Source of the DNA: Natrialba swarupiae
GTDB lineage: Archaea > Halobacteriota > Halobacteria > Halobacteriales > Natrialbaceae
DNA length: 64,000 nt
Direction of reading: 5' to 3'
Assembly: GCF_008245225.1 (NCBI RefSeq)
Contig: NZ_VTAW01000015.1
Span: 1 to 64,000, forward strand
Under the pieces are notes generated by a model. It did no database searches. It was not told where the DNA came from and saw only the letters and a program-made list of their open reading frames with translations. Positions within the stretch are counted from its first letter, which is position 1, and every line of letters starts with the position of its first letter. The translations under genes and the position numbers were made by a program. This document shows positions 3,628 to 42,715 of this stretch, in pieces.

Positions 3628-4682
3628 TGGTCCGAGCCGTCATTGCGGACGACTCCGCGGTCATGCGCGAAACGCTCGGCAAGATCCTGTCGGACGGCGG
3701 AATCGAGGTCGTCGCGCGGGCGAAAGACGGGATCGAAGCGGTGGAACTCATCGCCGACTGCGAGCCGGATATCGCGACGATCGACATCCAGATGCCCGGA
3801 TTGACCGGCCACGAGGTGATCGAACGCGTGATGGCGGAGAACCCGACGCCGATGCTCGTCATCAGCTCGCAGACGACCAGAAACGCCGACGCCACCTTCG
3901 AGGCGTTAGAGGCCGGCGCGGTCGACTTCATCGCGAAACCCTCCGGGGACAACTCGGTCGACATCTGGACCCAACAGGACAAGATCGTCGACCGCGTTCG
4001 TGCGGTCGCGGGAGCGACCGTCGACACGAGAGACGACGATCGAGGGCGCACGATCCGGAGCGCGACGCCGACGGTCGACGCTACCGACGAGTTCCCGTCC
4101 GATCCGACGCTCGTCATCGGCGCATCGACCGGCGGTCCGCGAGTCGTAGAGCGCGTGCTGTCCGAACTTCCACACCGAGCAGGATTACGAATCCTGGTAG
4201 TACAACACATGGCTGATCATTACACGAAACGATTCGCGAAGCGTCTCGACGAACGAACCGACTACGAGATCCGTGAGGCAACCGACGGCGATACGGTCGG
4301 GCCCGGCGAGGGAATCCTCGCGAAAGGCGGGTACCACCTCGAGGTGACCGACGTGACCGGCGGTCGGCTCACGGTGGCGAACGACGACGGCCCCAAACGT
4401 CACAACGTCAGGCCGGCGATCGACGTGACGATGGAGACTGCAGCGACACACGTCACCGGAAATCTCGTCGGCGTCGTCATGACCGGGATGGGTGCCGACG
4501 GCGCGGCGGGCCTCGAGTCGATCGCCGACGCCGGCGGCAAGACGATCGTCCAGGACGAGGAGAGCTCGCGGGTGTACGGGATGCCGAAGGTCGCCGCCGA
4601 GCGAGTCGACGTGGATATGGTTCTCCCCGAGGATCGGATCGCCGAGGGAATCACCAACGCGTTCAGGGGGTGGTCCTCGTGA
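3627..4682 (+). CDS. cheB: Protein-glutamate methylesterase / deamidase CheB
   Basis: 351 residues. An N-terminal receiver domain (IADDSAVMR; phospho-acceptor in IDIQMPG) is joined to a methylesterase domain. The catalytic triad is visible: Ser in GASTGG (about residue 165), His in VVQHMADHYT (about 190) and Asp in MTGMGADG (about 290). CheB removes methyl groups from transducer glutamates during adaptation. The start overlaps the cheY stop by 1 bp and the end overlaps cheA by 4 bp. Confidence 0.96.
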   Translation: MVRAVIADDSAVMRETLGKILSDGGIEVVARAKDGIEAVELIADCEPDIATIDIQMPGLTGHEVIERVMAENPTPMLVISSQTTRNADATFEALEAGAVDFIAKPSGDNSVDIWTQQDKIVDRVRAVAGATVDTRDDDRGRTIRSATPTVDATDEFPSDPTLVIGASTGGPRVVERVLSELPHRAGLRILVVQHMADHYTKRFAKRLDERTDYEIREATDGDTVGPGEGILAKGGYHLEVTDVTGGRLTVANDDGPKRHNVRPAIDVTMETAATHVTGNLVGVVMTGMGADGAAGLESIADAGGKTIVQDEESSRVYGMPKVAAERVDVDMVLPEDRIAEGITNAFRGWSS

Positions 4683-40867: not shown

Positions 40868-41171
40868 CCAGTTGACCTCCTGATCTTTCCTCCGAGTTTC
40901 CGAAGAACGGGCGTTTCGTAAGGATCGTTGCAACGACAGGCCCGGGATCTACCTGTAACAGCGCGAGAGTCCCGCCCTTCCCGTGAGGGACGAGTGTTCC
41001 GACATCCGGTCGGAACCGAGGACCGAACAGGGCGGGCGTGAAGCGCGTAACCTTTAGTGAGATTCTGCCGAAAGCTCGCTGGCCCTGAGTCACCAACAAG
41101 ACGGACGAGTTTCACTTCCACTGCGGATGGCTGACATTCAAACCAGAAGCGGACGTATACAGGAGTGGCTG
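40868..41171. other. Gap containing the probable left part of the tnpB element
   Basis: About 300 bp without a gene. It includes small inverted repeats (for example TTCCGAC-ATCCG-GTCGGAA near 41000). IS1341-type elements have no terminal inverted repeats, so the left boundary cannot be placed. Confidence 0.35.
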
Positions 41172-41300
41172 ATGAAGCGTACCAACACGTTCGCCGTGCG
41201 ACCGCTCTCCGACGACGATGAGCAGGTGCTACGGGACCTGTTGGACGCTTCCGCCGCTCTCTGGAACGAAGTCAACTTTCAGCGTCTCATGCGGTACTGA

Positions 41301-41341
41301 GCGGAGCAAAGCTCCGCGATGTCCGCAAATCTACGATTTGC
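41301..41341 (+). repeat. Double-hairpin insertion 1 in tnpB (frame-breaking)
   Basis: GCGGAGC-AAA-GCTCCGC (41301-41317), a 7-nt spacer GATGTCC, then GCAAAT-CTACG-ATTTGC (41325-41341). The TnpB frame shifts across it. Confidence 0.85.
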
Positions 41342-41990
41342 TTGACAACGACGAAAACGGCTTCGAGGGCGACGTGTTCGAGGCTGATACAGGCCGACTC
41401 GAAGGGAAGTACAAAGGCGTTCTCGGTGCGTCCACTGCCCAACAAGTAATTGGAAAAAACACCGAAGCGTGGAAGTCGTTTTTCACGCTCAAAGACCAGT
41501 ATCACGACGAGTCAAACACGTCGGTCACGGAACACCCGGGGCCGCCGGGATTCCGTGGGAACGAAGACGACGGACGTGTTCTCAAAGGCGTCATTCGCAA
41601 AGATGCGTACACTGTCGAATGGGGCGCTCGCTCCCGACTTGAGATCGTTGTCGGAGAACAACTCCGAGACAGGCACAACAGCCCAAAAAGCCGTCTCCGG
41701 TTGGAAGTCGTCGGCGACCCGAACTGGCCCGACTACGAGGACCAGAGCCGGTTAGACCTGTGGTACGGCGAGACTGATAGCACCTTCCGAGCTTCGCAAC
41801 CCGTGACTGTTTCTGACGATGCACGGGGCACTCCACTGGCCGACCACAAGGCCGCTCTGGACATTGGTGCAAACAATCTCGTCGCCTGTACCACGACGAC
41901 CGGCGACCAATATCTGTACGAAGGCCGCGAGTTGTTCCAGCGGTTCCGTGACACGACACGAGAAATCGCCCGGTTACAGTCGAAATTGCC

Positions 41991-42033
41991 CGAGAGACGA
42001 AGTCTCTCGGAATCACGGAAGACTTCGTCTTCC
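41991..42033 (+). repeat. Double-hairpin insertion 2 in tnpB (in frame)
   Basis: CGAGAGAC-GAA-GTCTCTCG (41991-42009), a 7-nt spacer GAATCAC, then GGAAGAC-TTC-GTCTTCC (42017-42033). It encodes a Ser/Arg-rich segment between QSKL and EGRYSS, which are expected to be adjacent in related TnpB proteins. Confidence 0.85.
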
Positions 42034-42574
42034 GAACGACTCGAAGAAGGCCGATACAGTAGCGAGCGTATCCGGCGGCTGTACCGGAAACGGACCCGCC
42101 GCCGCGACCACGCTCAAGAAGCACTGTGTCGTGACCTGCTCGAACGACTGTACGCCGAGGGTGTGGACACGGTGTATATCGGTGGCCTGACCGACGTGTT
42201 GGATACACACTGGTCAGTCGAAACGAACGCCAAGACGCACAACTTCTGGTCGTTCAAGAAGTTTACCGAGCGTCTAGCCTGTACCGCCGAGGAATACGGT
42301 ATCTCCGTAGAGGTCCGGTCGGAAGCGTGGACCAGCCAAGAGTGCCCGCAATGCGGTTCGACAGACCGAACGACACGGCATCAGGACACGCTCACCTGCC
42401 CGTGTGGGTTCGAGGGGCACGCCGACCTTACGGCTTCAGAAACGTTTCTGAGACGGCACACAGAGAAGGCAGTCAGGCCGATGGCACGGCCCGTGCGGTT
42501 CGAGTGGGACGACCACAACTGGTCGGAGTCACCACGCTCTCACGAAAGTCCCAAAGAACAGCGCACAGACCCGA

Positions 42575-42672
42575 GTACCGTCCACCGTGACGGGAATGTT
42601 GCCTCCGGGGAATCGGCATAGCCGAGACTCCCACGAAGGAAACCGCGCCGTTTACGACGCGGAGGATGTCAT
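42575..42672 (+). ncRNA. Right-end RNA of the tnpB element (omega-RNA/sotRNA type)
   Basis: The end of tnpB and the DNA just after it read ACCGCGCCGTTTACGACGCGG, a strong hairpin (42650-42664 region), followed by AGGATGTCA. This matches the usual right end of haloarchaeal IS1341 elements as recalled. In H. salinarum such loci produce sense-overlapping transcripts (sotRNA), and in TnpB systems this RNA serves as guide scaffold. The guide would be the sequence after about 42672. The boundaries are approximate. Confidence 0.55.
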
Positions 42673-42715
42673 GGATCGATCGGGTTGTTTCGCCGCTGCG
42701 TTCCCACTGTCCGTC

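Follow-up and report, generated by a model that had tools for sequence, protein, structure and literature searches.

Two hairpins packed into about 50 nt, mobile and with variable stems, characterize the double-hairpin elements (DHE) of fungal mitochondria. CGTC-tagged REPs have loops of 4–5 nt, stems of 8–9 bp whose first positions are A/T, and a tail of CCA-like sequence; both these REPs and the RPE-4 and RPE-6 repeats of Rickettsia carry CGTC-like tags, occur mostly as head-head dimers and have no known transposase, according to the portion of the account by Di Nocera et al. that is drawn on here (2013, PMC3733652). SMR-A and SMR-B of Haloquadratum walsbyi form homogeneous families, with lengths near 110 or 80 bp and terminal inverted repeats that are both prominent and conserved; they create no target duplication, prefer the near-terminal palindromes of IS605-type elements, and their mobilisation has been called enigmatic (Dyall-Smith et al. 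2011, PMC3119063). PATEs, including 52-bp forms that consist of the termini only, bear a likeness to the palindromes found near the ends of IS605-type elements (PMC3119063).

The element examined here, S1, lies within a tnpB gene of Natrialba swarupiae, in the 64,000-nt stretch of DNA that we analyzed (the window; Table 1). S1 very likely belongs to a haloarchaeal superfamily of non-autonomous mobile double-hairpin elements of ~48–57 nt. We read this family, which would spread site-specifically, as a haloarchaeal variant of small palindromic mobile repeats already described, namely the CGTC-tagged REP dimers/RPEs and the SMRs, and the open-access papers on haloarchaeal double hairpins and palindromic elements yielded no description of it. 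In having two hairpins in about 50 nt, mobility and variable stems it resembles the DHE, but the latter reside in mitochondrial hosts and there is no evidence of common descent. The palindromes and single-strand hairpin logic of the RAYT/REPtron systems (GTAG REPs) are likewise similar, except that the GTAG tag and the adjacent RAYT gene are absent here.

Table 1. Coordinates of the host element and its two double-hairpin inserts in the window.
Feature	Position	Strand	Basis
IS1341/IS605-type host element (left end, tnpB, right end)	40949..42675	+	bounds are where homology of relatives begins and ends
tnpB 5' part, from ATG at 41172 (MKRTNTF..), severed by S1	41172..41295	+	frame and alignment
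S1 double-hairpin element, 49 nt	41296..41344, or +1/+2; 41297-41345 favoured	+	59 relatives with the empty site, 5 filled rows; ends of L177 unit
TGA ending the tnpB frame, supplied by S1	41298..41300	+	sequence and frame
S1 hairpin 1, GCGGAGC AAA GCTCCGC	41301..41317	+	double-hairpin scan
S1 spacer GATGTCC	41318..41324	+	sequence, double-hairpin scan
S1 hairpin 2, GCAAATC TAC GATTTGC	41325..41341	+	double-hairpin scan
tnpB 3' part, open to stop codon, +1 relative to 5' part	41345..42621	+	Pfam OrfB_IS605 and Cas12f1-like_TNB; 424 open codons after S1
Site C element, a 54-nt in-frame insert lacking a stop; unit of the GTCGTT..TGATT.. type	41985..42038	-	80 empty and 2 filled copies
Site C hairpin CCGAGAGAC GAA GTCTCTCGG	41990..42010	+	double-hairpin scan
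Site C hairpin CGGAAGAC TTC GTCTTCCG	42016..42034	+	double-hairpin scan

The window contains exactly two double hairpins, both inside tnpB, as compared with 0–1 in each of ten shuffled windows (3 in total). The original prediction had placed two stems and a GATGTCC spacer at the point where the TnpB frame stops and shifts, which is borne out by the hairpin coordinates, the in-frame TGA and the change of phase. The interval proposed, 41301–41341, captures the hairpins correctly, while comparison with empty sites shows the inserted unit to be larger, at 49 nt. Placement of its ends is ambiguous by 1 or 2 nt because of an AC repeat at the boundary, and the favoured ends are those displayed by L177, an S1-type copy that lies nested in the same genome. 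Both S1 hairpins are perfect 7-bp stems with a 3-nt loop, and the minus strand reads TCAAGC..GGACATC..GCTCAG. When folded as DNA, the S1 stretch reaches z = -5.4, a value matched by 0 of 200 shuffles, and the site C element scores similarly (z about -5.4). In a covariance model built on the double hairpin, the site C element is found in its own genome with E = 1.6e-12 and the hairpins of S1 score weakly (E about 0.05). Judging from the reading frames, S1 would disable the tnpB of the window through its stop and +1 shift, and the site C element is presumably tolerated as an 18-codon in-frame addition.

Insertion of S1 is both precise and recurrent. In a first alignment of about 80 relatives, the site is cleanly empty in 59 of the 64 that cover it and filled in five rows, the window included; for site C, the same alignment shows 80 empty copies and 2 with the insert. 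This supports the earlier claim that an insertion breaks tnpB, and rather than being shared with intact tnpB relatives, the sequence recurs in other broken copies. S1 occupies the same nucleotide in six divergent haloarchaeal tnpB copies with only 0–3 differences in 49: the window, L013, L032 and L080 carry it without any difference, L119 with one and L017 with three. The tnpB genes of the carriers are themselves 13–16% apart, a rate that predicts 6.5–8 differences in S1, and their frames on either side of the insert are open in 6 of 7 carriers. Broken tnpB genes from several genera carry the identical S1 at this one site, so the insert is site-specific. The most closely matched pair, L013 and L019, has 5 differences in 1283 nt of tnpB (99.6% alike), yet S1 is present in one only, with exact boundaries; 2 of the 5 differences lie 5–6 nt beside the insert. 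On sequence, this pair is compatible with either gain or loss of S1, which cannot be told apart in this or any other single pair. A pattern search detected the S1 core in 3 of 391 Halobacteria genomes, namely the window copy, the copy in G229, which alignment places as L119, and a newly found copy, L320, flanked by sequence that matches the tnpB site. Plasmid and phage collections gave no match to the insert. A target-site duplication was rejected, as the flanking repeats vary from 0 to 5 nt; such repeats arise because the ends of the element resemble the target.

S1 and site C are only two of ~12–14 sites at which double hairpins occur in a whole-element alignment of the host, including the left-end hairpin loops, several positions in tnpB and the right-end hairpin loop. 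At most sites the spacer and ends are constant and the stems differ, each site having its own element type. A tree of 131 tnpB copies was computed with the inserts left out; on it, the fewest changes required equal the number of carriers at 9 of 10 sites (S1, A, B, C, D, E, F, RE and the single-carrier LEa; S1 6/6, D 7/7, RE 9/9), with LEb as the exception (14/17), the event count being limited by a quick tree with many open forks and by the choice of loci through tnpB similarity. Copies within a single genome also often share sites, as seen for L032 and L080 (S1), L039 and L041 (A), and L075 and L076 (D and E). Given the scatter of carriers and this sharing within genomes, ordinary descent with the IS does not explain the distribution, whereas site-specific re-invasion does, and a homing-like mode is probably how these elements spread. 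Like SMR-A, the family lacks a consistent flanking repeat and uses the left-end and right-end hairpin loops of an IS605-type host as sites, while a length of 48–57 nt, the double hairpin and hypervariable stems set it apart from the descriptions of SMR-A and SMR-B (PMC3119063). It resembles PATEs in size, in having hairpins near both ends and in the absence of target duplication, but differs from them in its freely varying stems and in showing no resemblance to IS605-type near-terminal palindromes in an unsystematic look (PMC3119063).

Several further arrangements were encountered among these host elements. In L119, the left end of the IS (about 4000–4280, reverse strand) contains at least four double hairpins chained in tandem or nested. 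Just upstream of tnpB, L082 (own genome, G000:C16) and L012 have an extra ~226 nt, absent from the window copy, whose apparent product is a small zinc-ribbon-like protein of divergent sequence. Many GTCGTA-type elements (at about position 1500 in L200, L211, L214 and similar loci) lie between CCTCGGGGTC and GACCCCGAGG arms, apparently within a terminal hairpin that belongs to a further IS1341-like family.

The structural rules of the family are strict. Among 80 sampled elements, 157 of 160 hairpins have a 3-nt loop and 156 have C-G closing. After removal of duplicates, GNA or TNC accounts for 88 of 107 such loops, against about 1 in 8 expected under equal base use; C(GNA)G triloops are exceptionally stable in DNA. 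Stems are mostly 7–10 bp and elements ~48–57 nt in length (49–57 nt at the tnpB sites). The original prediction also proposed searching for a 7-nt spacer starting with GA, a rule that does not extend to the family, as spacers differ by subfamily (GATGTCC, TGATCA, TGCC, TGGCGA, TGTGCGA) and are mostly 3–9 nt. Its suggestion that stems vary while the layout is kept is confirmed by the compensatory nature of stem changes: in 17 elements picked for clean hairpins, 57 cells are double-changed and 0 pairs broken, with 0 of 500 shuffles as high, and the right-end site by itself, in a set picked in the same manner, also shows compensatory changes. Elements unselected for perfection have 15 G-T pairs and 37 other mismatches in 1376 cells, and this relative rarity of G-T pairs suggests that the constraint acts on DNA rather than RNA. 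Many elements have GTCGTY or CGTC before hairpin 1, and on the right CAACG or TCCG is a frequent tag; the ends of S1 are TCAA and TCAG. An enclosing outer stem of at least 7 bp is present in 10 of 54 elements, as compared with 2.8 expected, an excess too modest for a general outer stem, which was rejected. Also rejected, by inspection, was a hammerhead ribozyme core (GTH..TGATGA..GAA), since TGATCA is commoner and the core bases fail.

As judged against the portion of the CGTC-tagged REP account used here, the likeness extends to short hairpins, in many elements possibly tagged by CGTC-like bases, to compensated stem variation and to in-frame units within genes, features shared by these REPs and RPE-4/RPE-6 (PMC3733652). 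The head-head dimer is also present in the largest subfamily, GTCGTT[hp]TGATCA[hp]AACGAC, whose unpaired parts are self-reverse-complementary, though our model selects dimers. However, the 3-nt loops and mostly 7–10-bp stems depart from the REP values of 4–5 nt and 8–9 bp, the stem rules are otherwise distinct and the spacers are of TGA/TGCC type; that same portion describes neither an archaeal case nor site-specific recurrence in IS copies (PMC3733652).

The distribution of the family spans the Halobacteria. With a covariance model that favours the GTCGTT subfamily and selects dimers, 92 of 116 Halobacteria genomes were positive, representing 41 of 46 genera and reaching 38 matches per genome; the own genome of the window was surveyed by the same type of search. 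When 148 genomes were sampled across the phylum, the only positives from other orders than that of the window were four genomes of one family. Many copies of AT-rich double hairpins, CAAAAATC NNN GATTTTTG, were observed in L318 and L319 (G273 and G282, of the non-Halobacteria family f21). Within the own genome, the S1-type unit of L177 is nested in the spacer of another double hairpin. Elements also reside in frame within chromosomal genes. In the own genome, purD is present once, as an open frame of 447 codons that contains an in-frame double hairpin of 48 nt; if translated in frame, its predicted product would include the peptide EEWSSSGNQNSSSSDD. Among its orthologues, 23 of 24 are free of any insert at that place and the remaining one, from a different family (L312 in G217), has a tandem-duplicated related insert at the same position. 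Further in-frame double hairpins occur in methyltransferase, S9 peptidase and DUF790 ORFs with Pfam domains, so that purD and these three ORFs parallel the in-frame insertion of RPEs into open protein genes. Pfam assigned a family to 4 of 20 long ORFs spanning double hairpins, one being another tnpB, and most of the 20 are probably spurious frames of GC-rich DNA.

Based upon these features, a mode of spread can be proposed. Each element would mainly re-invade, in further copies of its host sequence, the allelic site that it already occupies, being copied with little flank, and would occasionally jump to new sites. Movement would proceed via single-stranded hairpin DNA, probably tied to the single-strand (IS200/IS605-type) life of the hosts. 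HUH/Y1 single-strand chemistry is a tentative candidate for the activity that moves the elements, somewhat short of an even chance in our estimation. Counts of Y1 transposases and elements are correlated (rho 0.40), which may reflect general IS load. Strict dependence upon a Y1 transposase was rejected because the correlation is loose and 27 of 35 genomes lacking a Y1 transposase match still carry elements. Elsewhere in the own genome, a double hairpin lies ~2.4 kb from a Y1 transposase gene (G000:C65, about 6095 and 8546). It is conceivable, if doubtful, that a class-wide set of archaeal ~50-nt elements homes, subtype by subtype, to its own nucleotide via hairpin single-stranded DNA, with the stems renewed arm from arm, such that the identity of an element would reside in its layout and unpaired tags rather than in its sequence.

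The same patterns could be approached from the opposite direction, if the ancestor of the IS already had double hairpins and most copies have lost them precisely, for example by hairpin slippage. Hairpins are deletion-prone, the carriers are scattered with a separate element type at each site, and changes on the tree do not separate gain from loss. Against this, long residence would not keep S1 nearly identical across tnpB copies so far apart unless it were selected, and although S1 breaks tnpB, the frames around it are open in nearly all carriers, which argues for recent insertion; the nesting in L177 further indicates that insertion occurs. We therefore regard ancestral loss as improbable. 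A different possibility is that the elements are inert palindromes, moved between IS copies as passengers of short gene conversion and devoid of element-specific mobility today. Indeed, short-tract recombination between IS copies could have transferred inserts without any element-specific machinery, and this would accord with the detection of the S1 core solely at its tnpB site, with the sites shared by copies within one genome and with the two L013/L019 differences close to the insert. However, the flanks of S1 carriers share no longer tracts in the alignment, and the related elements that are nested, in purD and in other genes show that ectopic insertion takes place, leaving the passenger scenario rather unlikely.

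It could also be argued that the hairpins act in RNA, either as bypassed or spliced inserts that allow TnpB to be made or as parts of guide RNAs. The right end of such elements encodes guide RNA scaffolds, several insertion sites lie towards that end, the stems covary, and the open frames on both sides of S1 would suit a bypass. In contrast, the left end and genes of unrelated function also contain elements, which may lie on either strand, and G-T wobbles are outnumbered by other mismatches, unlike what RNA constraint would produce. Programmed bypass at S1 was rejected, as TAC precedes the insert and the landing codon is GAC, so take-off and landing codons do not match. A role in RNA thus appears very improbable, and mobile double-hairpin DNA with a homing-like spread continues to be our preferred interpretation.

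How REPs, RPEs and SMRs spread is a long-standing question, and both the CGTC-type repeats and the haloarchaeal SMRs are without a known mobiliser. The family described here offers sites known exactly in both empty and filled form, two nearly identical copies that differ by one insert, nesting and a strict structural rule, and its host group includes genetically tractable archaea in which mobility, target choice and the responsible enzyme are directly testable. For the organisms themselves, a house-keeping gene such as purD can carry such double-hairpin DNA in frame, and insertion of a double hairpin is a simple route for switching off tnpB genes.
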